From assembly GCF_004349105.1 (NCBI RefSeq), contig NZ_SMLB01000014.1, positions 62,001 through 126,000 on the forward strand: a DNA stretch of 64,000 nucleotides, in the 5' to 3' direction. Both the position numbers and the translations under genes were made by a program. The stretch comes from Jiangella aurantiaca (lineage in GTDB: Bacteria > Actinomycetota > Actinomycetes > Jiangellales > Jiangellaceae). Under the pieces are notes generated by a model, which did not search any database, was not told where the DNA came from, and saw only the letters and a program-made list of their open reading frames with translations. Positions 5,611 through 59,799 of this stretch are shown one piece after another; position 1 is the first letter of the stretch, and each line of letters begins with the position of its first letter.

Positions 5611-5654
5611 TCACCACGAAATCCCGTGCTTCACCAGTCCTGCAATCGTGGTGA
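5611..5654. repeat. intergenic hairpins with CTGCAA loop (element E)
   Basis: TCACCACGA...TCGTGGTGA (9 bp) and TCACCA-gtc-CTGCAA-tcg-TGGTGA. Confidence 0.55.
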
Positions 5655-5671
5655 CGCTCAAGACGTCGCGT

Positions 5672-5728
5672 TGATCATGGGAAAACGTTCCCTTCCGGCG
5701 CCTCGAAAGGGGACCTTCTCCATGATCA
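5672..5728. repeat. 57-nt imperfect palindrome with TGATCA ends
   Basis: TGATCATGG-GAA...TTC-t-CCATGATCA. Confidence 0.6.
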
Positions 5729-5782
5729 TGTTCGCTCGCGTTCGCTGACACGCCGCCAACGAACGTGACCAAGGGAACGGCG

Positions 5783-7129
5783 TCAGTGCGACGGCGGGAC
5801 GACGGGGAGGCCGTCCTCGAGCTCGGCGAGCGTGAGCAGCACGAGCGACGACGTCCAGGCCAGGGGCGCGACGGAGGCGGGGGTGGCCTCGGCGTCGACC
5901 TTCTCGGGCAGTGAGCCGAGTGGCGTGCGGTAGCTGTCGAGGAACGTCAGGAGCCGGTCGGCGTCCTCGCGGTCGCCGTTGCCGGCCAGCGCGAGCGCGA
6001 GCAGGGCGGTCTCAGGTGTCCACGCGACGTCGACGTCCTTGCGCCAGGCCTCGCCCGGGCGGTGGCCGCCGTTGGGCACCCGCAGCGCCAGCTCCGTCGC
6101 CCGCACGGCATCGCTGACCTCCGGCGTCGACGGCGCGAACGGCGGGGCCAGGAACGTGACCGCGGCGTCCGCGCCGCCGTCGGGCAGGGTGCGCGGGTAG
6201 CCGTGCGAGCCGAACTCGCGCTCGATGGCGTCGTCGAGACGGCGGGCGGCGTTGCTCCAGACGAACGGGTCCTCGACGCCGAGAAGCGGCGCGAGCGCCA
6301 GCGCTGAGCGCAGGCCCAGCGACAATGGCGCCGCCACCCCGAGCGTCAGGTCCGTCTCCTCCTTCTCCCAATAATCCGACGACGGCTCCGGCAGGCCGTC
6401 GTCGCCCAGGGAGCGGACGATCGCGTTGGTCGACGCGACGACCGCGGGCCGCAGCTCGTCGAGCACCTCGGCCGCGATGTCGGGCTCCACCTCCTGGGAC
6501 ACCAGCCACACGGCCCAGAGCACCCAGCCGGCGCTGTCGAGCTGCTTGGGACGGTCGTCGGGCGGGCCCGACCCGTCGGCGAGGTAGCGCGCCTCCCACT
6601 CGCCGTCGGCCGGGGCCACCCGGGCGAGGAAGCCGAGCACGTCGGCGGCCTCCTCATCGTGACCGGTGACGGCGTACGCGGCGGCCGCGAACGAGGCGTC
6701 GCGGGGCCAGACGTGCCGCCAGGCGGTGATCGGGGCGGCCATCAGCGCGCCGGAAGGCGACGTCAGCGCACGCAGGTCGAGCAGCGCCCGCTCGGACATC
6801 GCGTGGTACCGGGTGCCGTGGCCGGGGACGACGCCGTCGGCCAGCCAGCGGCGGTCGCCGTCGATGCGGGCCGCGACGGCGGGATCGGACCGGTTCGCGG
6901 AGCTCAGCACACTCGTGCCGGGCACGAACGCGGCCTCGGAGCCGGCCGGCACAGTGGCCACCGCGCCGCCGGGCTCGACCACGACGCCGTCGGCCCGGAG
7001 AGGGAGGACGGTCCCGCGCGACGGGGCCATGCTGAGTGCGGCGATGACGAGGATCACCGCCGGCAGCCCGATGCGCCACCCGAGGCGGCGGGACGATCGC
7101 ACGAAACCAGCGTACGTGGTCCATACCAT
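5783..7129 (-). CDS. GH15-like / glucoamylase-type (alpha/alpha)6 glycoside hydrolase, membrane-anchored or secreted
   Basis: N-terminal TM then WRHVWPRDASFAAAAYAVTGH, WVLWAVWL, PYSSDYWEKEE-like segment. Confidence 0.7.
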   Translation of the reverse strand: MVWTTYAGFVRSSRRLGWRIGLPAVILVIAALSMAPSRGTVLPLRADGVVVEPGGAVATVPAGSEAAFVPGTSVLSSANRSDPAVAARIDGDRRWLADGVVPGHGTRYHAMSERALLDLRALTSPSGALMAAPITAWRHVWPRDASFAAAAYAVTGHDEEAADVLGFLARVAPADGEWEARYLADGSGPPDDRPKQLDSAGWVLWAVWLVSQEVEPDIAAEVLDELRPAVVASTNAIVRSLGDDGLPEPSSDYWEKEETDLTLGVAAPLSLGLRSALALAPLLGVEDPFVWSNAARRLDDAIEREFGSHGYPRTLPDGGADAAVTFLAPPFAPSTPEVSDAVRATELALRVPNGGHRPGEAWRKDVDVAWTPETALLALALAGNGDREDADRLLTFLDSYRTPLGSLPEKVDAEATPASVAPLAWTSSLVLLTLAELEDGLPVVPPSH

Positions 7130-7220
7130 TCGGGCGTTCCCCGCCAGGTCACGGTTCGGTCGCCGTTCGTTCGCCCGTCGTTGGCGCCCGCGCCGGCTGC
7201 CGGCAAGGGAGGATGGTCGG

Positions 7221-8480
7221 GTGACCCCACCGGACTCACGACTCTCACGGCGCCTCGGAACCGGCGACGCCGTCGCCGTCGGCCTCGGCGCGATGATCGG
7301 CACCGGCGTCTTCGTCGCCTGGCAACCGGCCGCGTCGGCCGCGGGCGCCTGGCTGCTCCTCGGGCTGGCGATCGCGGCGTTCGTCGCCTTCTGCAACGCG
7401 ACGTCGACCGCCCAGCTGGCTGCCGTTCACCCGCGGGCCGGCGGCGCCTACCACTACGGGCGGCTGCGGCTGGGCGAGGCGTGGGGAGCGCTCGCGGGGC
7501 ACGCGTTCGTGCTGGGCAAGTCGGCCTCGTGCGCGACGGCGGCGCTGGCCGCGGGCGCCTACCTGTGGCCGGTCCACGCGGTGCCGGTGGCGCTGGCGGC
7601 GGTCGTGGCGGTGACGGCGGTCAACCTCGCCGGGGTCACGAAGACGGCCCGGGTCGGAGCGGTGCTGGTGGCCGTCGTCGCCGCCGTGCTGGTGGTGGTC
7701 GTCGCGACGGGGCTGGGCGGCGCCGGGGTCGCGCCGGACTGGTCGTCCGGGGTCTCGTCCGGCGGAGTGCTGGGAGTGCTCGGCTCGGCCGCCGTGCTGT
7801 TCTACGCATTCGCCGGGTATGCGCGGATCACGACGCTGGGCGAGGAGGTCCGCGATCCTGCGGCGATCCCGCGGGCGGTCGTGGTGTCGCTGACGGCGAC
7901 GCTGGCGCTCTACGCGGTGGTGGGGTTGACGGTGCTGCTGGTGCTCGGCGCGCCGGGCACGGCGGAGTCGTCGCAGCCGCTGCGTGACGTGGCCGCGGCG
8001 GCCGGCGCCGGCTGGCTGGAGCCGGTCGTGGCGGCGGGCGCGGCGGTCGCGGCGCTCGGCGCGCTGCTCTCGCTGCAGGCGGGGGTCGGGCGGACGGCGT
8101 TCGCGATGGCCACGTCCGGCGACCTACCGCGGACGCTGGCCGCCGTGCATCCGCGCCGCCGCGTCCCGCACCGAGCCGAGCTGGCCTCCGCCGTGGTGAC
8201 GGTGCTGCTCGTACTGATCGGCGACCTCGCGACGACGCTCGCGGCGAGCGCGTTCGCGGTGCTGGTGTACTACGCGGTCGCGAACGCGGCGGCCTGGCGT
8301 CTGGACCCGGAGGAACGGCGGTGGCCGCGCTGGCTGTCCGCGGCCGGGCTGGTCTCGTGCGTGCTGCTCGCGGTGTCGCTCCCCTGGCGCACCGTGGTGG
8401 TGGGTGCCGCCGTCCTCGCCGTGGTGATGCTGCTGCGAACGGCCGCGCGGAAGCGTAAGGCGCGATCAGCGCAGAGCTGA
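7221..8480 (+). CDS. APC-family amino acid permease
   Basis: GTGDAVAVGLGAMIGTGVFVAW...; multiple TM helices; GTG start with upstream GGGAGG. Confidence 0.85.
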   Translation: MTPPDSRLSRRLGTGDAVAVGLGAMIGTGVFVAWQPAASAAGAWLLLGLAIAAFVAFCNATSTAQLAAVHPRAGGAYHYGRLRLGEAWGALAGHAFVLGKSASCATAALAAGAYLWPVHAVPVALAAVVAVTAVNLAGVTKTARVGAVLVAVVAAVLVVVVATGLGGAGVAPDWSSGVSSGGVLGVLGSAAVLFYAFAGYARITTLGEEVRDPAAIPRAVVVSLTATLALYAVVGLTVLLVLGAPGTAESSQPLRDVAAAAGAGWLEPVVAAGAAVAALGALLSLQAGVGRTAFAMATSGDLPRTLAAVHPRRRVPHRAELASAVVTVLLVLIGDLATTLAASAFAVLVYYAVANAAAWRLDPEERRWPRWLSAAGLVSCVLLAVSLPWRTVVVGAAVLAVVMLLRTAARKRKARSAQS

Positions 8481-9419
8481 CCGGAGTTCGCCGACGGGGA
8501 CGCCGCCGCCGAGGACGGGGGCGGAGGCGAGCTCGTCCAGCACCGGCGCCTCGACGCCCAGCCGCCGGAGGGCGGCGACCAGGACGACCATGCGGGCGCG
8601 GTAACCGCCGTCGTCGATCTTGACGGCGACGGCGCGGCCGTCGTCGAGGGCGGCGGCGATGACGGCCTCGGCACCGGCCTTGGCGAACAGGCCGGGCACG
8701 CCGCGGATCAGCTGCGCCTCGTCGCGGGTGGTGCCGCTGGTGTACTCGGGGTGCGCCTGGATCGCCTCGGCCACCCGCCGCTCCGGCGTCCCCGACGGCG
8801 CCAGCGCGAGCGAGCGGAACATCCGCGCCAGCCCGGTCAGTGGGACGGCGAACAGCGGCGCGCCGCAGCCGTCGACACCCGTGTGGGCCACGGGCGCGCC
8901 CGCCAGCGAGCCGACCGTGTCGCGGATCGCCGTCTGCAGCGGATGCGCCGGGTCCAGGTAGTCCTCCGTCGGCCAGTCGTTGACGACGCAGGTGAGCAGC
9001 ATGGCGGCGTGCTTGCCGGAGCAGTCGGCGGTCAGCGACGACGGCTCGCCGCCCTTGCGCACGTAGTCGACCATCGTGTCGGGGTCGATCGGATAGCCCG
9101 GGGTGTTCCGCAGCGCCGACTCCTCGAGGCCGGCGAGTTGGAGGATGCGGCGGACGCCCTCGAGGTGGATCGGCTCGCCGGAGTGGCTGGCGGCCGCGAG
9201 CGCCAGCAGTTCGCCGTCCAGCGGCAGACCCAGCCGGAGCATCGCGGCCGCCTGGGCCGGCTTGTTCGACGAGCGCGGGTACATGGGAGCGTCGGCGCGG
9301 CCGGCGGCGAACGCCACCGACCCGTCGGCGGCCAGCGCGGCCACCGAGCCACGGTGCCGGGACTCCACCAGTCCCGACCGGACCACCTCAGCCACCAGGA
9401 CGGCGTCGCCCGCGTGCAT
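8466..9419 (-). CDS. type II-like asparaginase (Asparaginase_II family)
   Basis: VAEVVRSGLVESRHRGSVAALAADGSV...SNKPAQA...CSGKHAAML. Confidence 0.85.
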   Translation of the reverse strand: MHAGDAVLVAEVVRSGLVESRHRGSVAALAADGSVAFAAGRADAPMYPRSSNKPAQAAAMLRLGLPLDGELLALAAASHSGEPIHLEGVRRILQLAGLEESALRNTPGYPIDPDTMVDYVRKGGEPSSLTADCSGKHAAMLLTCVVNDWPTEDYLDPAHPLQTAIRDTVGSLAGAPVAHTGVDGCGAPLFAVPLTGLARMFRSLALAPSGTPERRVAEAIQAHPEYTSGTTRDEAQLIRGVPGLFAKAGAEAVIAAALDDGRAVAVKIDDGGYRARMVVLVAALRRLGVEAPVLDELASAPVLGGGVPVGELRSALR

Positions 9420-9488
9420 GTCGCTCCTCGTCTTCTCGCCGCAATTCCCTGCGACGATCCTGTCACGGGCCGCGGGCCGCCCCGGCAG

Positions 9489-10238
9489 TCAGATGGTGAA
9501 ACCCCCGTCCACCAGCACCGACGTCCCGGTGATGAAGCGGCCGTCGTCGCCCGCGAGATGCGCGACGGTGGCGGCGATCTCGTCAGCATGGGCGTAGCGG
9601 CCCAGCGCCGTGTGTGACCGGATGACGTCGGAGTACGGCCCGTCCGCCGGGTTGAGGTCGGTGTCCGTCGGCCCGGGATGCACGAGCGTCGCCCGGATCC
9701 CGCGCCCGCCGAGGTCGCGGGCCAGTCCCTTCGTCAGCCCCACCAGCGCGGTCTTGCTCATCGTGTACAGCCCGTAGCCGGGGAACACCGTCCGATCGGC
9801 GACCATGCTGCCGATCGTGACGATGCTGCCGCCGCCGGTCATGTGCCGTGCGGCCGCCGTCGACGCCACGAACGGCGCCCGGACGTTCACCGCGACAGTG
9901 CGGTCGAACTCGTCGATGCCCAGCTGGTCGATCGGCCCGACGGGGTACAGCGCGGCGTTGTTGACCAGGATGTCCAGCCGGCCGAACCGGTCGGCGACGG
10001 CGTCGACGGCGTCCGCCAGCGCGGCGGCGTCGGCGCTGTCGACCGCGAGCGCGAGCGCCTGCCGTCCGGCCTCCTCGACCGCGGCGACCACCTTCTCCGC
10101 CGCGGCGGCATCGGTGACATAGGTGAAGCCGACGTCGGCGCCGTCGCGGGCCAGCCGGCGGACCACCGCCGCGCCGATGCCGCGGCTGCCGCCGACCACC
10201 ATGGCCGCCCGGCCGTTCAAAGGGAGCTGCGTGTTCAT
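9489..10238 (-). CDS. SDR-family oxidoreductase
   Basis: [28 protein letters not shown]. Confidence 0.9.
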
Positions 10239-10329
10239 GACGTCGATCCTCCGGCCCGCCGCCCGGCGATACTGGCGGCAATCGGCCGCGGCGTTGGGGC
10301 CCGCACCCGGCCGTGCGACGATGCGGGGC

Positions 10330-14177: not shown

Positions 14178-14227
14178 TGATCATCAACCTTTTGCGCTGC
14201 CATAACGGCGCAAAAGGTTGATGATCA
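14178..14227. repeat. perfect 20-bp inverted repeat between convergent genes
   Basis: TGATCATCAACCTTTTGCGC-TGCCATAACG-GCGCAAAAGGTTGATGATCA. Confidence 0.8.
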
Positions 14228-17574: not shown

Positions 17575-18990
17575 ATGACGAACACACGCGGCCGCCTGAC
17601 GGTGCTCCTGGCCGTCGCCGCGGTCGCCCTGACTGCGTGCGGCGACGACTCAGAGCCGTCGGCGGAGGAGACCAGCACCGAGGCGCCGAGCGAGGCGCCG
17701 TCGGGCGAACCGTCCACCCCGCAGGAGACCACTCCGGAGTTCAGCTGCCCGCCGGAGCTCAGCGCCGAGCTGCCCGCAGGCCTGGACCCGGACAACTGCT
17801 GGTCGCACGAGGGCCTGGAGCGCCCGGCGCTGATCGACGGCACTGTGTTCGCCCTCGAGCCCGACGCCTCCGATCCCACCACAGATCGCCACATCGTCGC
17901 GCTGGACGCCGAGACCGGCGAGCGACTGTGGAAGTCCGAGGTGCTGCCGGGCCCCGTGTCGGCACTGCGGGCGACCGAGGTCGACGGCGGCCCGGGCGTC
18001 GCCGTCGTGGTCACCGAGAACGACGCGGGCGACGCGGTCACCGAGGCCTCGACGGCGTGGGGGTACCTCGCCTGGCCGGCCGACGCCGGCGGCGAGGACG
18101 GCGGCGACGCCGGCAGTGCGGACCCGTCCTTCCCGGCCGAGGTGCACATCACCGTCCCGCAGGGCGAGAACCCGCACACCGAGGTGTTCTGGACCGATCA
18201 GGGCGTGCTGGCCGGCGACTTCCTCCTGAAGCCGGGGGCCACCGAGTTCGTCCCGGTCAACCGTGACCCGGAACCGATGCTCGTCGGTGACTACGATCTG
18301 GACGAGTACTTCGCGGGCGTCTCCGGTGACCTGCTGATCTCCTACGTCCGCGGCATCGCCTACGAAGTCTCGGAGAACGGCGACACCTACGTCGGCTGGC
18401 TGGCCCGCACGTTCGACGGCGCCGAGGCGTGGAACACCGTCGCGTCGACGCCGAACGAGGAGGACCTGCTGTTCGCCGAGGGTCCGAACCAGCTGACGAT
18501 GCTGGTCGGCTCGTACCTGCTGACCATCGCCGCGACGGACGAGAACGCCACCGCCTTCGAGGTGGCCTGGCTGGACGCCGCCACGCACGAGCCGGCCACG
18601 CCGTCGGCCGCCGACCTCGCCGGTGTGCAGCCGGTCATCGCCGACCCCGGCCGTCTGGGCGGCGCCGGCGCCCTGCTCTCCCCCGACGGACGGCGCCTGT
18701 TCACGGGCTGGTCGAATGGGGCGCTGGTCCTGGACGTCGGGGCCGGCACGGTCACCCCGGTCGCGGCGGATTTCGCGATCCAGGGGTCCGCGATCGACGA
18801 CTCGACGGTCTACGGCGCCACCGAGAACGGCACGCTGACCATCGACCTCGCCAGCGCGGAGGCGACGGCCATCGACCCGCCGCACGAGAGCTTCGACCTC
18901 ATCGACGGCGAGTTCGGCGTGGCCCTCCTGGAAGGGGGTGTCGGCGAGACGTCCTACCTGGTCGGCGGCCGCCGCACCGACGCCGGCTGA
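17575..18990 (+). CDS. lipoprotein with PQQ/beta-propeller-like repeats
   Basis: MTNTRGRLTVLLAVAAVALTACGDDSEPS (lipobox LTAC); HIVALDAETGERLWKSEV. Confidence 0.75.
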   Translation: MTNTRGRLTVLLAVAAVALTACGDDSEPSAEETSTEAPSEAPSGEPSTPQETTPEFSCPPELSAELPAGLDPDNCWSHEGLERPALIDGTVFALEPDASDPTTDRHIVALDAETGERLWKSEVLPGPVSALRATEVDGGPGVAVVVTENDAGDAVTEASTAWGYLAWPADAGGEDGGDAGSADPSFPAEVHITVPQGENPHTEVFWTDQGVLAGDFLLKPGATEFVPVNRDPEPMLVGDYDLDEYFAGVSGDLLISYVRGIAYEVSENGDTYVGWLARTFDGAEAWNTVASTPNEEDLLFAEGPNQLTMLVGSYLLTIAATDENATAFEVAWLDAATHEPATPSAADLAGVQPVIADPGRLGGAGALLSPDGRRLFTGWSNGALVLDVGAGTVTPVAADFAIQGSAIDDSTVYGATENGTLTIDLASAEATAIDPPHESFDLIDGEFGVALLEGGVGETSYLVGGRRTDAG

Positions 18991-19006: not shown

Positions 19007-19115
19007 ACATCACGAGGACTTCTCCCGCTCCACGAGGTATGCATGCCTCGTGGAGCGGGAGAACCCGTCCTTCCGCCGCGCTGCCCGCACTGCGCAGGGC
19101 CCGCTCACCGTAATC
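19007..19115 (+). repeat. intergenic element A: ACATCACGAGGA box, 44-nt palindrome with ATGCAT centre, conserved GC block
   Basis: TTCTCCCGCTCCACGAGG-TATGCATG-CCTCGTGGAGCGGGAGAA (19020-19063) plus block 19069-19115 matching 59713-59758. Confidence 0.75.
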
Positions 19116-19472: not shown

Positions 19473-19739
19473 TCAGAGCCCGCCGCCCGCGAACGGCGGG
19501 AGCAGCTCGACCGCCGACCCCTCGTGCAGGACGACGGTAGCGGGGTCGCGCGACCCGGCCGGGGTGCCGTCGACGACGACGGCGCAGATGTCCAGGACCG
19601 CGGTGAAGCGCGGGCTGTCGCGGTGCGCCGAGCGGGCCGCGGCCAGCGCCTCGGCGAGTGTGCCGGCGTCGACGACCTCCTCGGGGATGCCGGCCGCCGC
19701 GCGGATGGCTGCCCAGTACCGCAGCGTCACCTTCGCCAT
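19473..19739 (-). CDS. MoaD/ThiS-family sulfur carrier-like protein
   Basis: MAKVTLRYWAAIRAAAGIPEEVVDAGTLAEAL...EGSAVELLPPFAGGGL. Confidence 0.85.
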   Translation of the reverse strand: MAKVTLRYWAAIRAAAGIPEEVVDAGTLAEALAAARSAHRDSPRFTAVLDICAVVVDGTPAGSRDPATVVLHEGSAVELLPPFAGGGL

Positions 19740-21474: not shown

Positions 21475-22248
21475 ATGGGCGACTACGTGCAGGTGGGTCC
21501 CGTCCGCACCTGGTACGACGAGCACGGTGAGGGCGATCCGCTGGTGCTGCTGCACGGCGGGCTGGTCGATGCCCGCTGGTTCGAGCCGAACCTCGCGCCG
21601 CTGGTCGAGCGGTTCCACGTCTACACGCCCGAGCGGCGCGGTCACGGGCACACGCCCGACGTCGAGGGACCCATCACGTACCAGCTGATGGCCGACGACA
21701 CGATCGGGTTCCTCGAGCAGGTCGTCGACACGCCGGCCGACGTCGTGGGCCACAGCGACGGCGCGTTCGTCGCGCTGCTGGTCGCCCTGCAGCGGCCGGA
21801 GCTGATCAACCGGCTGGTGCTCATCAGCGGCGGCTTCAGCAAGGACGGCGAGGCGGCGCCGGACGAGGAGTGGGACGTCGACGCGATCACCCAGTTCCTC
21901 GGGCCGGCCTACGGCGAGGTCTCGCCCGACGGCGAGGAGCACTTCCCGGTGGTCGCCACCAAGATCGGCGAGATGGCCGCGAAGGAGCCGTACCTCGACC
22001 CGGCCGAGCTGGCGAACGTCCCGCACCGCACCCTGCTGGTGTTCGCCGACGACGACCTGGTGACCATGCGGCACGCCGTCGACATGTACGAGGGGATCCC
22101 GAACGCCGAGCTCGCGGTGGTCCCCGGCACGTCGCATTTCATGACGCAGGAGAAGCCACACCTGGTGAACGCGATCGTGGTGGACTTCCTGACGAACGAG
22201 CCGGTGCCGACCGTCGCGCCCATCCGGCGGGCGCCGGCCGCGCCATGA
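21475..22248 (+). CDS. alpha/beta hydrolase
   Basis: LVLLHGGLVDARWFEPNLAPL; VVGHSDGAFVALL. Confidence 0.88.
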   Translation: MGDYVQVGPVRTWYDEHGEGDPLVLLHGGLVDARWFEPNLAPLVERFHVYTPERRGHGHTPDVEGPITYQLMADDTIGFLEQVVDTPADVVGHSDGAFVALLVALQRPELINRLVLISGGFSKDGEAAPDEEWDVDAITQFLGPAYGEVSPDGEEHFPVVATKIGEMAAKEPYLDPAELANVPHRTLLVFADDDLVTMRHAVDMYEGIPNAELAVVPGTSHFMTQEKPHLVNAIVVDFLTNEPVPTVAPIRRAPAAP

Positions 22249-23153
22249 GCGTCGCCCGCGTGTTCGAGGCCACCGAGGTGGCGGAGCTCAGCGCACTGGC
22301 GGACCGGGCGAGCGCGGCCGACGGCGTCGCCCCGTTCGCCGACGACCTGTTCCCGGCCGCGCGCGACGGCGCGACGACGGCGGCACTGTCCGTTCGCGCC
22401 GGCGACCGCCTCGTCGGGGCGGCGTACGCGGCCGCACAGGGCGACCGGCTGGCCGCCGAGCTCGTCGTCGACCCGGCGTACCGCAGGCAGGGGCTGGGCG
22501 GCGCACTGCTCGCCGACCTGCTGGACTTCGTCACCGGCGAGCTGTGGCTGTGGTCGCACGCCGATCACCCGGGCGCCGTCGCGCTGGCCCGGCGGTACGG
22601 CCTCGAGCGCGCCCGCGAGCTGCTCCAGCTGCGCCGCCGGGTGGCGCCGGGGTCGCTGCCGGAACCGCGGCTGCCCGACGGGGTCCGGCTGCGGCCGTTC
22701 GAGCCCGGCCGCGACGAGGCCGCCTGGCTGGAGGTCAACAACGCAGCGTTCGCCTGGCACCCGGAGCAGGGCGGCCAGACCCTCGACGACATCCGGTCCG
22801 CCGAGACCTCGCCCGACTTCGACCCGGCCGGCTTCCTGCTCGCCGTCGACGCCGACGACCGGCTGCTCGGCTTCCACTGGACGAAGGTGCACGCGCACGA
22901 CCCGAACCCGGGTCCGGGCGGGGTGGACGAGCCGATCGGCGAGGTCTACGTGCTGGGGGTGGCGCCGGACGCGCATGGCCGCGGACTGGGCGGCGCGCTC
23001 ACCGTCGCCGGGCTGCGGTACCTGGCCGACGTCGCCGGCGTACGCACCGTCACCCTCTACGTCGAGGGCGACAACACCGCTGCCGTCCGCCTCTACGAGC
23101 GCGAGGGCTTCACCCGCCACGCCGTCGACGTCGCCTACCGCCGCGACGCCTGA
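22245..23153 (+). CDS. mshD: mycothiol synthase (double GNAT)
   Basis: two acetyltransferase domains; NNAAFAWHPEQGGQTLDDI; GFHWTKVHAHDPNPGPGGVDEPIGEVYVLGVAPDAHGRGLG. Confidence 0.93.
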   Translation: MSVARVFEATEVAELSALADRASAADGVAPFADDLFPAARDGATTAALSVRAGDRLVGAAYAAAQGDRLAAELVVDPAYRRQGLGGALLADLLDFVTGELWLWSHADHPGAVALARRYGLERARELLQLRRRVAPGSLPEPRLPDGVRLRPFEPGRDEAAWLEVNNAAFAWHPEQGGQTLDDIRSAETSPDFDPAGFLLAVDADDRLLGFHWTKVHAHDPNPGPGGVDEPIGEVYVLGVAPDAHGRGLGGALTVAGLRYLADVAGVRTVTLYVEGDNTAAVRLYEREGFTRHAVDVAYRRDA

Positions 23154-23176
23154 CGGGGGCGAATCAACGATCGCCC

Positions 23177-23280
23177 ACATCACGAGGATCACCCGAGCCT
23201 CAACACGCCTGCAAGCGTGTTGACGCAGCGGAAAACCTCATGATGGCCCCGAATCGTCGGTGAAATCTCACCACGTGGAC
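23177..23280 (+). repeat. intergenic element C: ACATCACGAGGA box, CCTGCAAG-loop hairpin, 3' block GGTGAAATCTCACCACGTGGAC
   Basis: TCAACACG-CCTGCAAG-CGTGTTGA; matches element D (42568-42672, opposite strand). Confidence 0.75.
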
Positions 23281-23331
23281 ACCGGAGCACGGCTGTGCCC
23301 GCTCTTTCCCCGTCCGCCTGATAGCTGCCCG

Positions 23332-25881
23332 TCATTCCCGCAGGCCGATCGCGTCGACGGGGCGCAGCCGCAGGGCCGCGCGGGCCGGGAGCCCGATCGC
23401 CAGGAATCCCAGCAGCGCGGTCACCAGCACGATCCCGCTGAACCCGGTCGGTGAGATCGACGGCAGCGGCGACTCGGTCAGCCCGACGCTGACGCCGACC
23501 AGCGGCGGCAGCGCGACCAGCAGGCCGACCACGACCGACACCGCGACGATCACCGCCGTCTCGACGCGCATCATCGCCAGCACGTGACGCCGGCCGGCAC
23601 CGGCCAGACGCAGCAGCGCGAACTCGCGGGTCCGCTCGGCCGTCGCCATGACCAGCGTGTTCACCACTGACACCGCCAGGTAGGCGAGCAGCGCGAGGAT
23701 CGCGACCAGGCTGGTGGACGACTCCGCCGCGCGCTCGGCGGAGCCGGCCGCGGTCAGGTCGGCGCCGGTCCCGGCGACCAGCCCCGGGTGGTCGTCGGTC
23801 ACCCGCGCGACGGCGTCGCCGGCGGCATCGGCGTCGCCGCCGACCAGCACCCAGCTGTCCAGCCCGGTGGTCGTGTGCGCCGCCAGCTGGTCGTGCGGCA
23901 GCGTGACGTCGCCGAAGCCCAGGCCGCGGCCGTAGACGGCGACCACCGTCGGCTCGATCTCGGTGCCGTCGCCCAGCACCAGATCGACGGTCTCGCCGAC
24001 CGACGCGCCGAACGTCGCCGCGGCGGTGCGGCTCAGCGCGACCGTGCCGTCGTCGAGGGCGCCGAGGTCGCCCTCGCGCACCTCCAGGTCGAGGGTGTGC
24101 TCCAGCCCGTCCGGGTCCAGGCCCTGGGCGGGGAACGTCTCCATGGTCGGCTCGCCGAGCTCGGAGTAGCGGACGACGATCTGGCTGTGCACGACCGGCG
24201 TCACCGTCGTGTCGTCGTCCAGCTCCCGCCGCAGCTCCTCGGTCACGGCCGGGGCGACGCCGCCGTCCTGCCCCGTCACCACGTGGTCCGCCACGACGCC
24301 GTCGATGGTCTGCCGGCCGGCCGCGGCGGCCAGCGTGCTCTGGCTGAACAGTTGGAAGGAGACGAACGCGACGGCGAGCACGATCGGGGTGACGGCCGCG
24401 GCCAGCCGGCGCGAGTTGGCCCGCATGTTCGCCGTCGCCAGGTAGCCGTGCACCGGCGACAGCCGTCGTACCGGCCCGCCCAGCAGGCCGGCCGCCGCGC
24501 CCAGCAGCCGTGGCCCGAGCAGCGCCACGCCGATGGCCAGCAGGAGCACACCGCTGGCCGCACCCGCGACGCCCACCATGCCGGGCACCAGCAGCGGGAT
24601 GCCGGACGCCGCCACGCCGAGCAGGAGCAGCACCAGGCCGGTGACGACCCGCCCGGCGCCCAGCTGCGACTTCTCGACGGCGCTCTCCCCCAGGGCCTCG
24701 ACGGGGTTCAGCCGGGACGGCCGCCGGGCCGCCACCCACCCCGCCAGCCGGGCCGTGACCAGGCACAACACGACGGCGCCAGAGCCAGGCACCGGGCCCA
24801 TGGCCAGCTGGAAGTCCTCCGGCAGCAGCCCGGAACCGGCGAACGCCCGGCCCAGGATCACTGCCAGCAGGTAGCCGGGCACCGCGCCGATGACGGCGGC
24901 GGACGTCGCGAGCAGCATGACCTCGGCGCCGACCAGCCGCCGGACCTGCCTGCGCGTCGCGCCGACGGCGCGCAGCAGGGCGAACTCGCGCCGCCGCTGC
25001 TGGATCGACAGCGCCATCGTGCCGGCCACGACGAACATCGCGATCAGCACCGTCGTGCCGCCCAATGACGCCGCCAGGACCGTCAGCTCGACGCGGGCCC
25101 GGCCGATGTCGAAGAACTCGACGTGGCCGCGGGCGTCGCCGGTGTACGTGCGCACGTCCGGCACGGCGTCGGCGATCCGGTCGGCCAGGTCACCCGCGGA
25201 CTCGCCGTCGGCCGCGACCACGCCGATCGCGTCCCAGCGGGCCGACTCGTCGACGCCGGCCAGCGCAGCCACGGCGTCGTCAGTCAGGAAGACCGCGGAC
25301 TCCCGGGCGTCGCCGTCCGGCCGCGACACCACGCCGGTCACCGTGTACGCCGACGCGACGCCGCCGACGGCCAGCTCGATCCGGTCGCCGGCGTCGATGT
25401 CCAGGGCGGACGCGAGGTCGTCCTCTACCGCCACCTCGACGTCGCGCTCCGGCGCCGCGCCGCCCTCGGCGACCGCGAACGGCGTCAGCGCCGTCGCCGA
25501 CCAGCCGTGTCCGGCCACCGGCCGCTCCGTCTCCGCCACGGCGCCGTCGGCCACCACGCTCACCGGGACACTGACGTCCCCGACCGCCTCGGCCACGCCC
25601 GGCACGTCCGCGACCGCGTCGACCACGTCGGCCGGCAGCCGGACCCGTTCGGACAGCCCCAGGTCGGTGTCCTCGACGACGGGCAACGCCTGGACGCCGC
25701 CCACGACGGCGTCGGCGCCGGCGTAGCGCTGCGGCGGCAGGCCGCCGCGGACCCCGGACTCCACCAGCACGGCGAGCGCCGTCACCAGCGTCGAGGCGAG
25801 CAGCACGGCGAGGAACGCGCCGGCCGATCCGGCCTTGCGGCCGTGCATCGTCTTGCGGGCGAGATCGCGCATCTTCACCAC
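23332..25881 (-). CDS. FtsX-like ABC transporter permease
   Basis: MVKMRDLARKTMHGRKAGSAGAFLAVLLASTLVTAL; two FtsX-type domains (ALLRAVGATRRQVRRLV; ALLRLAGAGRRHVLAMM). Confidence 0.9.
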   Translation of the reverse strand: MVKMRDLARKTMHGRKAGSAGAFLAVLLASTLVTALAVLVESGVRGGLPPQRYAGADAVVGGVQALPVVEDTDLGLSERVRLPADVVDAVADVPGVAEAVGDVSVPVSVVADGAVAETERPVAGHGWSATALTPFAVAEGGAAPERDVEVAVEDDLASALDIDAGDRIELAVGGVASAYTVTGVVSRPDGDARESAVFLTDDAVAALAGVDESARWDAIGVVAADGESAGDLADRIADAVPDVRTYTGDARGHVEFFDIGRARVELTVLAASLGGTTVLIAMFVVAGTMALSIQQRRREFALLRAVGATRRQVRRLVGAEVMLLATSAAVIGAVPGYLLAVILGRAFAGSGLLPEDFQLAMGPVPGSGAVVLCLVTARLAGWVAARRPSRLNPVEALGESAVEKSQLGAGRVVTGLVLLLLGVAASGIPLLVPGMVGVAGAASGVLLLAIGVALLGPRLLGAAAGLLGGPVRRLSPVHGYLATANMRANSRRLAAAVTPIVLAVAFVSFQLFSQSTLAAAAGRQTIDGVVADHVVTGQDGGVAPAVTEELRRELDDDTTVTPVVHSQIVVRYSELGEPTMETFPAQGLDPDGLEHTLDLEVREGDLGALDDGTVALSRTAAATFGASVGETVDLVLGDGTEIEPTVVAVYGRGLGFGDVTLPHDQLAAHTTTGLDSWVLVGGDADAAGDAVARVTDDHPGLVAGTGADLTAAGSAERAAESSTSLVAILALLAYLAVSVVNTLVMATAERTREFALLRLAGAGRRHVLAMMRVETAVIVAVSVVVGLLVALPPLVGVSVGLTESPLPSISPTGFSGIVLVTALLGFLAIGLPARAALRLRPVDAIGLRE

Positions 25882-37657: not shown

Positions 37658-37674
37658 GGATCGGCCACGCGGAC

Positions 37675-37703
37675 GCGCCCGCCACGACGGTCGTGGCGGG
37701 CGC
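37675..37703. terminator. strong hairpin terminator after pstB (convergent pair)
   Basis: GCGCCCGCCACGAC-g-GTCGTGGCGGGCGC. Confidence 0.8.
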
Positions 37704-37721
37704 GCCGCGTTCGGTGCGGCG

Positions 37722-42488: not shown

Positions 42489-42567
42489 GCGGACCACTCT
42501 GTCGGTGATCACTCAGTGCTGTCAAGACCCGGCCAGCGCATGCGGTGCGGCGTTGCTCTCGTTGAGC

Positions 42568-42672
42568 GTCCACCTGGTGAGATTTCGCCGCGTTTTCCGG
42601 GCCGCCCATCACGATTACCTGAGCCTCAACACGGTTGTAAGCGTGTTGAGGCTCAGGTAATCCTCGTGATGT
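42568..42672 (-). repeat. intergenic element D (minus orientation): ACATCACGAGGA box, 20-bp hairpin, 3' block
   Basis: ATTACCTGAGCCTCAACACG-GTTGTAAG-CGTGTTGAGGCTCAGGTAAT (42614-42661); 22-nt block 20/22 identical to element C. Confidence 0.8.
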
Positions 42673-42684
42673 CCGCGAACGTGG

Positions 42685-43692
42685 TCAGAGGGAGCTGAGA
42701 CCCGGGATGAGCTGGAGGATCCCGAAGCTGAGCGCGGCCGCCAGCCCGGCCATCGGGATGGTGAGCGCCCAGGCACCGACGATGTTGCCGGCGACGCCCC
42801 AGCGGACCGCCGACAGCCGCTTGGTGGCGCCGACGCCGATGACGGCGGACGTGATCGTCTGGGTGGTGGAGATGGGGGCGTGGTAGGCGAACGCCGTCGT
42901 GTAGAGCACGCCGGCGGCCACCGACTCCGCCGCGAAGCCCATCGGCGGGTCCAGGTGCACGATGCGCCGGCCCAGGGTCCGCATGATCCGCCAGCCGCCC
43001 GAGTACGTGCCGGCCGCGAGCGCCGTCGCCGCCAGCACGATCACCCACCACTGCACCTCGAAGCCGGTTTGGTACTGCCCGACCACCAGCGCCAGCGTGA
43101 TGACGCCCATGGTCTTCTGGGCGTCCTGCAGGCCGTGACCGAGCGCCATGGCGGCCGCGCTGAGTGTCTGCGCCATCCGGAAGCCGCGGTTGACCCGGCC
43201 GGGATGGGACTTCCGGAAGATCCACTGGATCGCCGTCATCACCAGGAACGCCAGCCCGAACCCGACGAGGGGTGAGACGACCATCGGGATGACGACCTTC
43301 TCGAGGATGCCGGTCCACTTCACCGAGTTGGCCGACGCGAGCGCCGCGCCGACCAGCCCGCCGATGAGCGCGTGCGACGAGGACGACGGCAGCCCGAACC
43401 ACCAGGTGATGAGGTTCCAGACGATCGCGCCGACCAGCGCCGCCAGCACCACCAGCAGGCCGCGGTCACCCTCGGGCGCCTCGATGATGCCGGCGCCGAC
43501 GGTCTGCGCGACCCCGGTGCCGAGGAAGGCTCCCACGAGGTTCATCGACGCGGCCATGAGCAGCGCGGCCCGCGGCGTCAGCGCGCGCGTCGACACCGAC
43601 GTCGCGATCGCGTTGGCGGCGTCGTGGAACCCGTTGGTGTAGTCGAACGACAGCGCGACGACGATCACCGTCAGGATGAGCGCGAGCTCCAC
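42685..43692 (-). CDS. pit: inorganic phosphate transporter, PiT family
   Basis: DYTNGFHDAANAIATSVSTRALTPRAALLMA; SSSHALIGGLVGAAL. Confidence 0.96.
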   Translation of the reverse strand: MELALILTVIVVALSFDYTNGFHDAANAIATSVSTRALTPRAALLMAASMNLVGAFLGTGVAQTVGAGIIEAPEGDRGLLVVLAALVGAIVWNLITWWFGLPSSSSHALIGGLVGAALASANSVKWTGILEKVVIPMVVSPLVGFGLAFLVMTAIQWIFRKSHPGRVNRGFRMAQTLSAAAMALGHGLQDAQKTMGVITLALVVGQYQTGFEVQWWVIVLAATALAAGTYSGGWRIMRTLGRRIVHLDPPMGFAAESVAAGVLYTTAFAYHAPISTTQTITSAVIGVGATKRLSAVRWGVAGNIVGAWALTIPMAGLAAALSFGILQLIPGLSSL

Positions 43693-51014: not shown

Positions 51015-51029
51015 TCAACCTGTCACATC

Positions 51030-51064
51030 GCTGCCCCCGTCCCTTCCGCAGGGACGGGGGCAGC
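51030..51064 (+). terminator. strong hairpin downstream of csp
   Basis: GCTGCCCCCGTCCCT-tccgc-AGGGACGGGGGCAGC. Confidence 0.8.
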
Positions 51065-51271
51065 GGCGCGCCCGGGGTTCATTCCCTGTGGTCCGGACCG
51101 CCCGCCGGAGGCCATTCCCGCTGCTGGAAGCGCTTGTCCGAATCCCTCGCCAAGGGGTAGACGGACCGTTCTGTTCAGAAGGGGCTTGATAACGGCCGGG
51201 TAACTGTGGTTCGGTGGTTGGCACGTGGTCAAGCAATCGCCACTTCGCTTCATTCTGGAGAGGTGTAGGCC

Positions 51272-54301: not shown

Positions 54302-54535
54302 GGACGCTTCACCACCATCGGTTTCGGGACGCCTGGACTCCACCCCGAGTCCTGCCAGGCCTCCAGTGGTCGGCACCCGACGAGGGGAGCGTTCGCCCCA
54401 TCCGGTGCCGATGTCATCCGACGCCTACCTTTACTGAGCGTCGCATGTACTGTCAAGGTCTCGTCGGATCATCGCGCGGACGTCACTCTGGCACGCCGGC
54501 CGCCCAGAATCAAGATCCTTTGCATCGGCGATTCC

Positions 54536-54628
54536 CCTTTCCCTTGCGGGACTCGCCGCCACCTGGGACCTCGCGGCCGGCCCTGGGGCAATCGGTCGTG
54601 CCGCGGCGGATGCAACCAGGGGCCGCGG
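54536..54628 (+). repeat. direct repeat copy F1 (51 nt) followed by ATGCAA-loop hairpin
   Basis: 54536-54586 is 44/51 identical to 55965-56015; hairpin CCGCGGC-ggATGCAAccaggg-GCCGCGG. Confidence 0.7.
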
Positions 54629-54744
54629 TCGGGCGTCATCACGTACGGCGGGCCACGGGGCCCGTCACGGGGGTGCCCGCGCCGTCACGGCGCAGTCGGG
54701 TGGCCGGGTCCGCGTGCCGAACGCGGACCCGGGCCCGGGGGCCG

Positions 54745-55062: not shown

Positions 55063-55218
55063 GACTCGCAGCCTATTACTCCAGCCGAAGATCGTGATCT
55101 TGGTCGTGTCGCTGCGGGCTCAGAGCGCGCGCCGATGACGGGGCCGCCGCTCCAGCAGGCGCCGCTCGGACTCCTGCGTATCGAGCCCGGATGTGACGAT
55201 CTACGGCTGGAGCACAAG

Positions 55219-55263
55219 TTGACAACGCACACCCGGAGGCGAATACTCGAAGTCGAGTATTCG
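55219..55263 (+). promoter_or_regulatory. padR promoter with overlapping operator palindrome
   Basis: TTGACA (55219-55224), 17 nt, AATACT; palindrome CGAATACTCGA-ag-TCGAGTATTCG (55240-55263). Confidence 0.7.
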
Positions 55264-55279
55264 ATACCGAGGAGGCGTC

Positions 55280-55963
55280 GTGGCCGCCATCCGTCCGTCC
55301 AATCCCCTGGCGCTGGCCGTGCTCGTTCTGCTGTGGGAACGACCCATGCACCCGTACGAGATGTCGAGCACCCTGCGCGAGCGGCGCAAGGAAGACAGCA
55401 TCAAGCTCAACTACGGCTCGCTGTACTCCGTCGTCGAGTCGCTGCAGAAGCGCGGGCTGATCGAGGCGGCCGAGACGGTGCGCGAGGGCCGGCGGCCGGA
55501 GCGGACCATCTACGCGATCACCGAGACCGGCGCGCAGGTCATGGTCGACTGGATGGTCGAGCTGCTGAGCACGCCGAAGAAGGAGTTCACCCAGTTCGAG
55601 GCGGCGCTGTCGCTGGCCGGCGCGCTGCCACCCGAGCAGGTCATCGAGCTGCTCGGGCAGCGGCTGCGCAACCTGCGCTTCCACCAGAAGGCCGTCGAGG
55701 CGATGTTCGAGGAGGCGAGGGCGGTCAAGCTGCCGCGGCTGTTCATGATCGAGGCCGAGTTCTCCGCCGCCCTGCTGACGGCCGAGATCGCGTTCGTCGA
55801 ACAGTTGCTGGCCGAGCTGCGAACCGGCACCCTCGGCGGGTTCGCCATGTGGCAGCGCATGCACGAGCTGCGCCGGGCCGGCGTGCCGCCGGAGAAGATC
55901 GAGGCGAAGCTCAACGTGGAGTTCGCCGACGAGCTCGCCTTCGCCCAGGACGAGGACGCTTAG
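55280..55963 (+). CDS. PadR-family transcriptional regulator
   Basis: LALAVLVLLWERPMHPYEMSSTLRERRKEDSIKLNYGSLYSVVESLQKRGLIEAAETVREGRRPERTIYAIT. Confidence 0.93.
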   Translation: MAAIRPSNPLALAVLVLLWERPMHPYEMSSTLRERRKEDSIKLNYGSLYSVVESLQKRGLIEAAETVREGRRPERTIYAITETGAQVMVDWMVELLSTPKKEFTQFEAALSLAGALPPEQVIELLGQRLRNLRFHQKAVEAMFEEARAVKLPRLFMIEAEFSAALLTAEIAFVEQLLAELRTGTLGGFAMWQRMHELRRAGVPPEKIEAKLNVEFADELAFAQDEDA

Positions 55964-55964
55964 T

Positions 55965-56065
55965 CCTTTTCGTTGTGGGACTCGCCGCCGCCTGAGACCT
56001 CGCGGTCGGCCTTGGTCCAGACAGCTCGACTCCCGGCCACGGTGCTGCAACACCACGGCCGGGAG
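55965..56065 (+). repeat. direct repeat copy F2 (51 nt) followed by CTGCAA-loop hairpin
   Basis: begins 2 nt after padR stop; hairpin CTCCCGGCC-ac-GGTG-CTGCAA-CACC-ac-GGCCGGGAG. Confidence 0.7.
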
Positions 56066-56191
56066 CCGATCGAAAACGAGGAGCCGGAGACTCACCACGC
56101 GGATCGCCCCGACCCCACGGTCCTGCACCACCAAGGATACGGGCGACACCACGCGGCACCGGTTCCTTCCCACCGGAAGGAGAACCGCACC

Positions 56192-57235
56192 ATGCAGCAC
56201 GCCATCGAGGCCAAGGGTCTGGTGAAGACCTACGGCAAGGGGGCGAAGGCCGTCCGGGCGCTGTCCGGCGTCGGCTTCGCCGTCCCCCGCGGCACGGTGT
56301 TCGGCCTGCTCGGGCCGAACGGGGCCGGCAAGTCGACCACCACCAAGATTTTCACCACGCTCTCCACGCCGGACAGCGGCACCGCCGTCGTCGCCGGGCT
56401 GGACGTGGCGAAGGAGCCCGGCCGGGTCCGGCACGCGATCGGCTACGTGCCGCAGAAGCCGTGCTTCGACCCCACCGCCACCGGGCGCGAGAACCTCACC
56501 CTGCAGGGCCACGTCTACGGGATGTCGGGTTCGGACATCCGCACCCGCGGCGACCAGTTGCTGGAGCGGTTCGGGTTGGCCGACGCCGCGAACCGGATCA
56601 CCAAGACGTGGTCCGGCGGCATGCAGCGCAAGCTCGACGTCGCACTGGCGCTCATGCACCGGCCGCAGGTGCTGTTCCTCGACGAGCCCACCACGGGCCT
56701 GGACCCGGAGGCCCGCGCGGACATGTGGGCGGAGATCTCCGGCGTCACGCAGGCCGACGGTGTCACCGTCCTGCTCACGACCCATTACCTGGAGGAGGCC
56801 GACCAGCTGGCCGACCGGCTGGTCATCATCGACCGCGGCCAGGTCGTGGCCGAGGGTACTCCGGAGGAGCTGAAGGGCGGCCTCGAGGGCGACGCCGTCC
56901 AGGTCGAGCTCGCCGACCCGAGCCAGCAGGAGGCCGCCCACCGGGCTGTGGCCGCCGTGCGCGGTGTCGGCGAGATCACCGCCGACGGCGCCCGGCTGCA
57001 CGCCCGCGTCGGCAACGGCGCGGCGACGCTGCCCGGCCTGCTCGCCGCGCTGGACGGCGCCGGCGTCGCCCCCGCCTCACTGACGGTCGCCCGGCCGTCG
57101 CTCGACGACGTCTACCTACGGCACGCCGGCCGGTCCTTCCACAGCGCCGACCGCGCCGGCCTCGCCGGTGCCACGCAGACGGAGGTGGAGGTGTCGACTG
57201 CGGCCCGCCGCACGGCGTCAGGGAGGCAACAGTGA
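56192..57235 (+). CDS. DrrA-type ABC transporter ATP-binding protein
   Basis: LVKTYGKGAKAVRALSGVGFAVPRGTVFGLLGPNGAGKSTTTKIF; WSGGMQRKLDVALALMHRPQVLFLDEPTTGLDP. Confidence 0.93.
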   Translation: MQHAIEAKGLVKTYGKGAKAVRALSGVGFAVPRGTVFGLLGPNGAGKSTTTKIFTTLSTPDSGTAVVAGLDVAKEPGRVRHAIGYVPQKPCFDPTATGRENLTLQGHVYGMSGSDIRTRGDQLLERFGLADAANRITKTWSGGMQRKLDVALALMHRPQVLFLDEPTTGLDPEARADMWAEISGVTQADGVTVLLTTHYLEEADQLADRLVIIDRGQVVAEGTPEELKGGLEGDAVQVELADPSQQEAAHRAVAAVRGVGEITADGARLHARVGNGAATLPGLLAALDGAGVAPASLTVARPSLDDVYLRHAGRSFHSADRAGLAGATQTEVEVSTAARRTASGRQQ

Positions 57236-58059
57236 GCGCGACCCTCGCACCCGCGGCCCAGGCCCGTACCGCCGGCGGGCAGCGCGGCGCCGCGCTCCGG
57301 CACGCGGTGTACCTGACCGGGCGGTCGCTGCGGATCCTCCGCCGCGAGCCGGTGTACCTGGCGTTCACGCTGATCCAGCCGATGGTGTGGCTGCTGCTGT
57401 TCGGCGCGCTGTTCGAGCGGGTCGCCGACCTGCCCGGCTTCGGCGACATCTCCTACCTGGAGTACCTCACCCCCGGCGTCGTCGTCATGACGGCGATGAT
57501 GTCGGCCGGGTGGGCGGGCAGCCAGTTCATCGACGACATGCAGCGCGGCGTCATGGACCGCAACCTCACGTCGCCGGTCAGCCGGGGCGCGCTGATCACC
57601 GGCGCGCTGGCCTACCAGGCGGTCGTGACGGTCGTGCAGTCGCTGATCGTGTTCGGGGTCGGCCTGCTCGCCGGCGCCCGGTACGACGGCGGTGTGGCCG
57701 GCGTGCTCGTCGTGCTGCTCTGCGCCACGCTACTGGCGGTGATCTTCGCGGCGCTGTCCTGCGCGGTGGCGCTGACGCTGCGGTCGCAGGAGTCGCTGAT
57801 CGGGGTGTCGCAGTTCCTGACGCTGCCGCTGGCGTTCATGTCGACGGTGATGATGGCGCCTGCTCTACTGCCCGGGTGGGTCGGCACGGTCGCCCGCTAC
57901 AACCCGGTCGACTGGGCGGCCCGGGCCAGCCGCGAGGCGTTGCTCGGAAGTCCGGACTGGTCCGCCGTGTTCGGCCGGGCGGGGCTGCTGGCCGCGCTGA
58001 CCCTCGTCATGGCCTGGCTCGCGACCCGGGCGTTCCGCGCCTACCAGCGGTCGGTCTGA
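57232..58059 (+). CDS. DrrB-type ABC-2 transporter permease
   Basis: TGRSLRILRREPVYLAFTLIQPMVWLLLFGALFERV; GTG start overlapping ATPase stop. Confidence 0.92.
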   Translation: MSATLAPAAQARTAGGQRGAALRHAVYLTGRSLRILRREPVYLAFTLIQPMVWLLLFGALFERVADLPGFGDISYLEYLTPGVVVMTAMMSAGWAGSQFIDDMQRGVMDRNLTSPVSRGALITGALAYQAVVTVVQSLIVFGVGLLAGARYDGGVAGVLVVLLCATLLAVIFAALSCAVALTLRSQESLIGVSQFLTLPLAFMSTVMMAPALLPGWVGTVARYNPVDWAARASREALLGSPDWSAVFGRAGLLAALTLVMAWLATRAFRAYQRSV

Positions 58060-58093
58060 CCCCTTCCGCCGCTCGCGCCCCGCGCCGCCGTCG

Positions 58094-59089
58094 TCAGCGG
58101 CCGGGGTGCAGCGGCGCGGTCGGCGCGCCGGCGCTCTCGGCCATGCCGGTCAGCGCCTCCCGGAGCGCCTGCCGGCCGGTGTGAGTGGGCTGCCAGCCCA
58201 GCTCCCGCCGGGCCCGGCCGCTGTCGAGCGTCGGCAGGCCGAGCAGCAACCGCAGCAGCTGGTCGTCGGACGGGATGAGCCGCAGCCGCCAGGCCCCCGC
58301 CGTCGCCAGCGCGGCCGCGGTGTCCGGGATCGTCACCACCCGGGTCCGCAGCACCTCGCCCAGCCCGGCCGCGTCGATGACGTCGTCGGTGGCGACGTTG
58401 AAGGCACCGCGGGCGTCCCCCGTCGCGACCCGCCGGACCACGTCCGCCACGTCGTCGGCGTGCACCGCCTGGAACCGCAGGCTCCGCGGCGCGGTGACCA
58501 CCGGCAGCCGGCCCGGCCGCAACAGCGTGCGCGGCAGCAGCGGGCCGGCGAAGATGCGGGCCTGCTCGCTGGCGGCGGGCCGCTGGAAGACGAAGCACGG
58601 CCGCAGCCGTACGACCCGCACGTCCGGATGCCACAGCTCGAACGCGTCGAGGTACCGCTCGAGGTAGGACTTCTCGCGGCCGTACGCCGCGGTGGGGCGG
58701 GCGTGCGTGGGCCAGCTCTCGTCGACGTGCCGTCCCGGACCGGCCGAGTAGGCGCCCACCGACGACACGTAGACGAGCGTCCGCACGCCGGCCCGGGCCG
58801 CCGCCTCGAACGTCGCGATGCCCCCGCGCACGTTGACCTCCCACGTCCGCAGCGGGTCGTGGGTGGGCTGGAACGCCCAGGCCAGGTGCACCAGTACGTC
58901 GCATCCTGCGAGCGTGGGCACCAGGTCGGACGTGGCGATGTCGGCGGCGGCGAACGTGGTGCGCGCGGGCAGTCGCAGCGGCGGGCGCCGGGCGATGGCC
59001 ACGATGTCGGTGACCTCGGAGTCGGCCGCCAGCACCGGGACGATGCTGAACCCGAGATTGCCGGTCGCGCCGGTGACGGCCACGCGCAT
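58094..59089 (-). CDS. NAD-dependent epimerase/dehydratase
   Basis: MRVAVTGATGNLGFSIVPVLA; VYVSSVGAYSAGPG. Confidence 0.9.
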   Translation of the reverse strand: MRVAVTGATGNLGFSIVPVLAADSEVTDIVAIARRPPLRLPARTTFAAADIATSDLVPTLAGCDVLVHLAWAFQPTHDPLRTWEVNVRGGIATFEAAARAGVRTLVYVSSVGAYSAGPGRHVDESWPTHARPTAAYGREKSYLERYLDAFELWHPDVRVVRLRPCFVFQRPAASEQARIFAGPLLPRTLLRPGRLPVVTAPRSLRFQAVHADDVADVVRRVATGDARGAFNVATDDVIDAAGLGEVLRTRVVTIPDTAAALATAGAWRLRLIPSDDQLLRLLLGLPTLDSGRARRELGWQPTHTGRQALREALTGMAESAGAPTAPLHPGR

Positions 59090-59098
59090 GGGTCCTCC

Positions 59099-59620
59099 TC
59101 AGGTCACCGTGCCGAACACCCGGGCGGCCGCCCGGACCCGGAGCGTCTCGACCTGCGCCGCCTGTTCGGTCGCCCGCTCGATGAGGCGGTCCATCCGCCC
59201 GACGTCGGGCCGGCCGTGTGCGACGCCGACGGTGCGCAGCGTCCGCCAGCCGCTGGCCTTGCCCTCGATCCCCAGCCGCAGCATCTCCAGCTCGACGACG
59301 GCGCTCAGCGGGGAGCGGGTGAGCAGGTGGCCGTTGAACTTCAGCCGGCCGGCCAGCTCCGCGGCCGCGGCGGTGTAGAGCTTGTAGCGGCGGATCGGCA
59401 CGTCCAGCTCGTCCATGATCGCGACGAGTTCCTCGCGGTCGGCGGCGATCTCCTCGGCCAGGCCGCTCAACGGCTCGCCCAGCGGCGTCCCCCGCATGCT
59501 GCGAGCGAGCCGGCGCACCAGCTGCACGCCGGCGGTCGCGCCGGCCAGATGGTCGTTGAGGTAGATCCCGAGCAGCTGGGGCTCGGGACGGATGGTCTGC
59601 TCTGCTGCGGGCTCGGACAC
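59099..59620 (-). CDS. conserved-looking hypothetical protein, helical
   Basis: GTG start after GAGGAGG; QLLGIYLNDHLAGATAGVQLVRRLARSMRGTPLGEPLSGLAEEIAADREELVAIMDEL. Confidence 0.7.
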   Translation of the reverse strand: MSEPAAEQTIRPEPQLLGIYLNDHLAGATAGVQLVRRLARSMRGTPLGEPLSGLAEEIAADREELVAIMDELDVPIRRYKLYTAAAAELAGRLKFNGHLLTRSPLSAVVELEMLRLGIEGKASGWRTLRTVGVAHGRPDVGRMDRLIERATEQAAQVETLRVRAAARVFGTVT

Positions 59621-59712
59621 CGCGCCTCCTCGCGAATGGGCGACGTGCGTCCGTTACCCCGTCCGGTGGCCGGTATTCGGAGGTGGTCCGCGGACCTCCT
59701 CCGACGCGAGTT

Positions 59713-59799
59713 GATCACGTTGAGCGGGCCCGCGCTTTGCGGGCAGCGCGGCGGAAGGGCGGCGTGTATTCGCTTCACCAGGCATGCATTCCTGGTGAA
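59713..59799 (-). repeat. intergenic element B (minus orientation): ATGCAT-centre palindrome plus conserved GC block
   Basis: TTCACCAGG-cATGCATt-CCTGGTGAA (59774-59799); block 59713-59758 about 42/47 identical to element A. Confidence 0.75.

Follow-up and report, generated by a model that had tools for sequence, protein, structure and literature searches.

REP-like repeats are known chiefly from Proteobacteria, Cyanobacteria and a small number of other phyla, and the most familiar of these repeats are linked to RAYT enzymes. REPINs are inverted REP doublets that form hairpins; their ends are conserved, the hairpin is constrained in length, the spacer carries compensatory changes, and the excision products are asymmetric (PMC3116915). 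The GTAG- and CGTC-tagged REP superfamilies carry a tag at one end, comprise families with different stems (mostly 6–13 bp in the GTAG type) and are located mostly between convergent or co-directional genes; the text that describes them never mentions Actinobacteria, and the CGTC REPs have no known dedicated transposase, so that systems of this kind exist (PMC3733652). In Streptomyces, 3' ends at hairpins that lack a U-tract have been reported, as have bidirectional ends (PMC8269248).

Here, we describe five hairpins from a 64-kb stretch of a Jiangella genome that are probably copies of a REP/REPIN-like superfamily of interspersed palindromes, perhaps also serving as bidirectional 3'-end hairpins. 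The basis is a fixed 30-8-30 geometry, the copy number, intergenic placement, absence from syntenic sites, founder-type complementarity of the arms and a patchy distribution. REPINs are the closest known system: in both cases, high-copy intergenic palindromes of similar size have conserved, asymmetric ends and an inner part whose length is constrained and whose changes are compensatory. The present units differ in the lack of a RAYT/Y1 gene in 30 genomes, in their end tag TYGAYCAC-GT (hereafter, the foot box), in being palindromic through a TGCA dyad and in their actinomycete host. With the GTAG/CGTC REPs they share the form of one-end tagged palindromes with differing stems and convergent or co-directional placement, and, with the CGTC type, the lack of a dedicated transposase, but their arms are 30 nt long and their tag is neither GTAG nor CGTC. 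Thus, the high-copy intergenic palindromes typical of REP/REPIN-RAYT systems are found (41 units per 931 kb, none in coding DNA), whereas the GTAG/CGTC tag (the foot is TYGAYCAC-GT) and the RAYT gene are not; because the tag differs and Y1/RAYT is absent, we regard the superfamily as REP-like in its working and not as a REP/RAYT member.

Hairpins of the window

The window is a 64-kb piece (G000:C8:62001-126000) of a 6.62-Mb Jiangella draft genome, in which a preliminary description had recognized seven hairpins with nearly the same six-base centre as a single superfamily. All seven centres are where that description had placed them; five of the hairpins match two covariance models, R1, which was built from 57 Jiangella units with the foot box excluded, and R2, which includes the foot box (threshold 1e-4), and the remaining two, at 54610 and 56045, are not members. 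The training rows of R1 took in all five window members and those of R2, among these, only 5609-5676; R2 recovers the window units at 19011, 23169, 42603 and 59761, none of which is in its training set. The arms, previously thought to differ completely, form two subfamilies that are related to each other and have the same geometry, type A (5640, 23209 and 42635) and type B (19039 and 59784). In comparison with shuffled sequences, most members fold as strong hairpins.

The first type-A unit (5599..5676, plus strand; R1 E = 1.1e-11, R2 E = 5.4e-10) consists of the foot box AAATGATCAC at 5599-5608 and a 68-nt core at 5609-5676 with the centre CCTGCAAT; its RNA fold is poor (z −0.5) because its arms have diverged. 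The second (23178..23245, plus strand; R1 E = 1.5e-15) lies within a repeat (23163-23285) that recurs at 42566-42682, has convergent genes on either side (22245-23153, plus strand, and 23332-25881, minus strand) and is replaced by unrelated DNA in relatives. The third (42604..42671, minus strand; R1 E = 2e-15) is part of a 152-bp insert, 42533-42684, which extends to the stop codon of the gene for a Pit-like transporter; this pit-PQQ site is empty in J. muralis, J. ureilytica, G010, G004 and G008, and the transporter itself shows 92-93% identity to Jiangella endophytica, J. muralis and J. ureilytica, which identifies the host as a Jiangella (Jiangellaceae). Of the type-B units, 19008..19075 (minus strand; R1 E = 7.7e-17), with the centre CATGCATA, is contained in an insert of 500 bp that is flanked by convergent genes (17575-18990, plus strand, and 19473-19739, minus strand) where the G010 site comprises 39 bp, and 59753..59820 (plus strand; R1 E = 3.5e-12) is contained in a 149-bp insert, 59682-59830, with a foot-like AGTTGATCACGTTGAG from 59709, where the G010 site comprises 28 bp.

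Among the two non-members, 54603..54631 has short GC-rich arms and a loop with ATGCAA; its fold is at chance level, no better than shuffles (z −0.36), neither R1 nor R2 matches it, and relatives have no hairpin there. The other one (56030..56065, plus strand, 3' of gene 55280-55963) has 15-nt arms, CTCCCGGCCACGGTG-CTGCAA-CACCACGGCCGGGAG, and is a genuine hairpin (z −3.4), but neither R1 nor R2 matches it; as every letter of 56030-56065 recurs at the orthologous site of two other Jiangella, G010 and G004, this is a conserved 3' hairpin unrelated to the superfamily. The stretch 59832-59871 is likewise letter-identical at the orthologous sites of both genomes, the flanks of the two stretches being only about 87-90% identical, and the sequences suggest that both stretches are conserved 3' or regulatory structures. 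Another dispersed repeat (CCTTTCCCTTGTGGGACTCGCCGCCGCCTGGGACCTCGCGGTCGGC-like), with several copies in 864 kb, occupies 54530-54586 and 55965-56015 of the window; these copies are inserted relative to G010 and G004.

Structure of the units

With the centres superimposed, almost every member consists of a 30-nt arm, an 8-nt core and a 30-nt arm, with a unit size of roughly 70-90 bases. A full copy (about 84-90 bp) comprises, in this order, the foot box TYGAYCAC-GT, an outer block, a linker, an inner block, the TGCA dyad and the mirror image; the foot box is often present just outside one or both arms, the second foot being missing in most copies. Within each arm, the outer and inner blocks are similar in sequence (roughly TCACCASG) and about 20 bp apart, and the 8-nt core is TGCA-centred in 49 of the 74 Jiangella units and in 11 of 16 units from outside. 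Type A (own genome, G001 and G002) has the core CCTGCAAT, with either ACCCGAG or TCTGGAG as the linker; in type B (own genome, G007 and G003), the core is CATGCATG or CAAGCATT and the linker TTCTCCCGC. In G003, the unit has a sharp start, AAATGATCACGT, at 43 bp from the centre, and its opposite arm is ragged. The foot box resembles what we take to be the target motif of ISDra2-type elements, TTGAT.

Abundance and genomic context

The DNA compared comprised 931 kb of the own genome and parts of G001, G003, G004, G007, G008 and G010. In a centre-based scan of the 931 kb, TGCA was found at the centre of 9 of 54 even-centred intergenic quasi-palindromes (0.15 expected) and of 0 of 53 quasi-palindromes in coding DNA; shuffled intergenic DNA yields 2.3 such palindromes versus the 54 real ones. 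TGCA palindromes are thus far above expectation, and the objection foreseen in the preliminary description, that centred palindromes might be no more frequent between genes than in shuffled controls, does not apply. The 41 units in 931 kb correspond to about one unit per 23 kb and, by extrapolation, to about 290 copies in the whole genome. When positions 5500-5800 were compared with the own genome by blast, 46 matches were obtained, in three separate blocks, and the matches listed for 42560-42690 numbered 53 in G000, 53 in G001 and 56 in G002; with dozens of matches for such stretches, the hairpins are therefore dispersed repeats.

All 74 Jiangella units are intergenic, none being inside a gene called by the custom codon-usage caller that underlies the context counts. 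The units occupy 26 convergent, 42 tandem and 6 divergent gaps, compared to 102 convergent, 434 co-directional and 184 divergent gaps overall, so that convergent gaps are enriched in units (odds ratio 3.3, p = 2e-5) and divergent gaps are depleted (0.26, p = 5e-4). In tandem contexts, the foot points toward the upstream stop codon in 23 cases vs 11, a difference not strong enough for use. In other families, the best units often take up most of a convergent gap, and narrow convergent gaps are often filled (e.g. 4+31, 8+9 and 14+18 bp to the flanking genes).

The units follow stop codons, occupy convergent gaps and, in most window members, fold strongly, all of which they share with the I-shaped (U-tract-less) and the bidirectional terminators of GC-rich bacteria; in Streptomyces, hairpin ends lacking U-tracts and bidirectional ends are documented (PMC8269248), so that a 3'-end role of the units is plausible. 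That the units are primarily bidirectional terminators, arising or being replaced locally, by recombination or by palindrome-generating template switching, and not mobile, appears unlikely: neither a fixed 30-8-30 geometry nor a foot box nor a TGCA dyad is required for termination, whereas the units form a repeated sequence family of fixed length with all these features, and a single sequence recurs dozens of times per genome. No U-tract was seen by eye 3' of the window units, which are therefore not canonical intrinsic terminators. For REP/REPIN-like repeats, a secondary function of this type can be envisaged, whereby the long hairpin of a unit that follows a stop codon would act in both directions as a 3'-end structure, through termination or mRNA protection; such a role would tolerate or favour copies between convergent genes and keep copies out of promoters.

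Empty sites and probable mobility

Not one of the 36 own units with syntenic flanks is common to the corresponding G010 site. About half of the 36 G010 sites hold 85 bp or less and are essentially empty, compared to intervals of about 110-1030 bp in the own genome, which often start a few bases from the stop codon. The own-genome inserts are mosaics of several palindromic modules, and for this reason target duplications are not readable at the empty sites; at those of G010, where boundaries are blurred, neither a target-site duplication nor a sharp insertion boundary could be read. Inserts in G000:C14, C47, C80 and C8 (e.g. C80:2913-3942) are mosaics of further palindromic modules, namely, GGCCGTCCCCCTGCTGCCCATTCTCTTGGCCGCG and its inverse, CGGACTTGAGGCGCG, GGGGCGAGTCTGGGCACACC and CCCACGGA...CAGAAGAGCC. 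No units were found in G004 and G009, and G010 has one marginal match, whereas G000-G003, G005-G007 and G011 carry units; for most of the other Jiangella genomes, the scored matches number 90-150 when both strands are counted. Within the Jiangellaceae, G017 lacks the superfamily and its congeners are positive.

Mobile elements of another kind, MITEs, which would here derive from a cut-and-paste (DDE) insertion sequence, be non-autonomous and have the foot box as the terminal inverted repeat, come to mind given that some copies have inverted ends AAATGATCACGT...ACGTGATCATTT, among them a two-hairpin copy in J. endophytica that is bounded by this pair. Like MITEs and the palindrome-associated IS200-IS605 derivatives, the units are short, non-coding and hairpin-forming. 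This origin is nonetheless doubtful, for the second foot is missing from most copies, the units are palindromic up to the dyad, no target-site duplication was seen at the empty sites, with their blurred boundaries, and no parent element was noticed in the DNA examined, in which genomes were read in part; the Y1 transposase is absent as well.

Complementarity of the arms

Across families, the arms covary (score 0.411, compared to 0.168 ± 0.012 when shuffled and at most 0.147 when slid), in keeping with the complementary change noticed in the preliminary description, and both sides have changed in 26 of 30 pairs, a count that is biased upward by the choice of the outside loci with a structure-aware model. 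Because the loci were selected in this manner and the foot box is not part of R1, it is the foot box that provides unbiased evidence. Within subfamilies, randomly swapped arms pair like the true ones (0.803 vs 0.804, 0.692 vs 0.691 and 0.790 vs 0.780); only for type A of the own genome do the true arms show a slight excess (0.774 vs 0.751). Since swapped arms pair equally well, the complementarity is inherited from founder palindromes: a new subfamily starts as a palindrome, and from then on each copy drifts on its own, i.e. these are founder-type repeats.

This result does not support the earlier suggestion of compensatory change copy by copy, as in a structured RNA. Rfam contains no such family, in agreement with the view that no named family matches: there was no gathering-level match in the window, and the hairpins of the outside loci gave only sub-threshold miRNA matches. 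That the units are conserved structured RNAs, a riboregulator family, is highly improbable and, the covariation across families notwithstanding, largely refuted by the arm-swap test, the palindromes being, in addition, readable from either strand, dispersed, without an Rfam match and missing from the syntenic sites of the relative. Units that are dispersed and absent from such sites are therefore better understood as REP/REPIN-like DNA repeats than as a conserved RNA gene.

Distribution in Actinomycetes and possible mobilization

Matches to R1 were detected in 31 of 247 genomes of Actinomycetes, representing 17 of 104 genera. The loci outside the family have quite different yet complementary arms, but their geometry is unchanged and the core is TGCA in most of them. 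Of 24 such loci, which are not fully independent as some share one genome, there are 16 in which TYGAYCAC-GT is located exactly at the Jiangella foot position even though the foot is not included in R1; the background of the foot box is 0.00077 per position and strand. R1 matches in families f13 and f26, where the foot box is lacking, were regarded as unrelated hairpins and left out. With R2, 31 of 395 genomes gave matches, including most Jiangellaceae; those in families f6, f9, f28 and f40 are clear, and those in f19, f26 and f48 are weak. A phylum-wide draw of 297 genomes contained no match other than the own genome. The pattern of a constant centre with changing, complementary stems thus extends to Jiangellaceae and at least four other actinomycete families, with a patchy distribution. 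The literature yielded no earlier description in Actinobacteria, in a search that was thin on subscription journals, and the superfamily was previously unnamed.

Y1/RAYT (PF01797) is absent from 12 of 12 Jiangella genomes and from 18 of 18 other genomes, the control genomes being positive, which rules out RAYT/Y1 as the mobilizer in all 30 genomes tested. At L200, two close units had seemed to flank a transposase gene, and no transposase-like ORF is apparent there. Movement could proceed by folding of single-stranded DNA into the hairpin, which a putative nuclease that recognizes the foot would copy or move. We tentatively propose a TYGAYCAC-GT-tagged, REP-like superfamily, so far confined to Actinomycetes, that might be spread by an enzyme other than Y1/RAYT, with copies domesticated as bidirectional 3'-end elements. 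A superfamily that extends over several families of actinomycetes, has a tag of its own and a fixed geometry, and thrives without a Y1 transposase implies either that repeats of this type are made by another enzyme or that their spread requires no dedicated one; given hundreds of copies versus none inside one genus, the search for a mobilizing enzyme is directly testable.

Other palindromic repeats

A second family of palindromic repeats, GTTGATCTTGGAGTTGTTCGGC...GCCGAACAACTCCAAGATCAAC, which are about 75 bp long and variable at the centre, also has TTGATC at the foot and was found in G000, for example at L037:7830-7901 and L038:9272-9351, and near 47820 of C8. A third family, CCATGATCATCAAGGATC...GATCCTTGATGATCATGG, is present at L011:9604-9663, L011:10659-10716 and L046:6231-6294; G010, which is without the main superfamily, has a hairpin similar to it at one otherwise empty site (C47 115283). 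Within the window, near-perfect palindromes outside the superfamily are located at 4607-4648, 14178-14227, 37667-37710 and 51029-51065.
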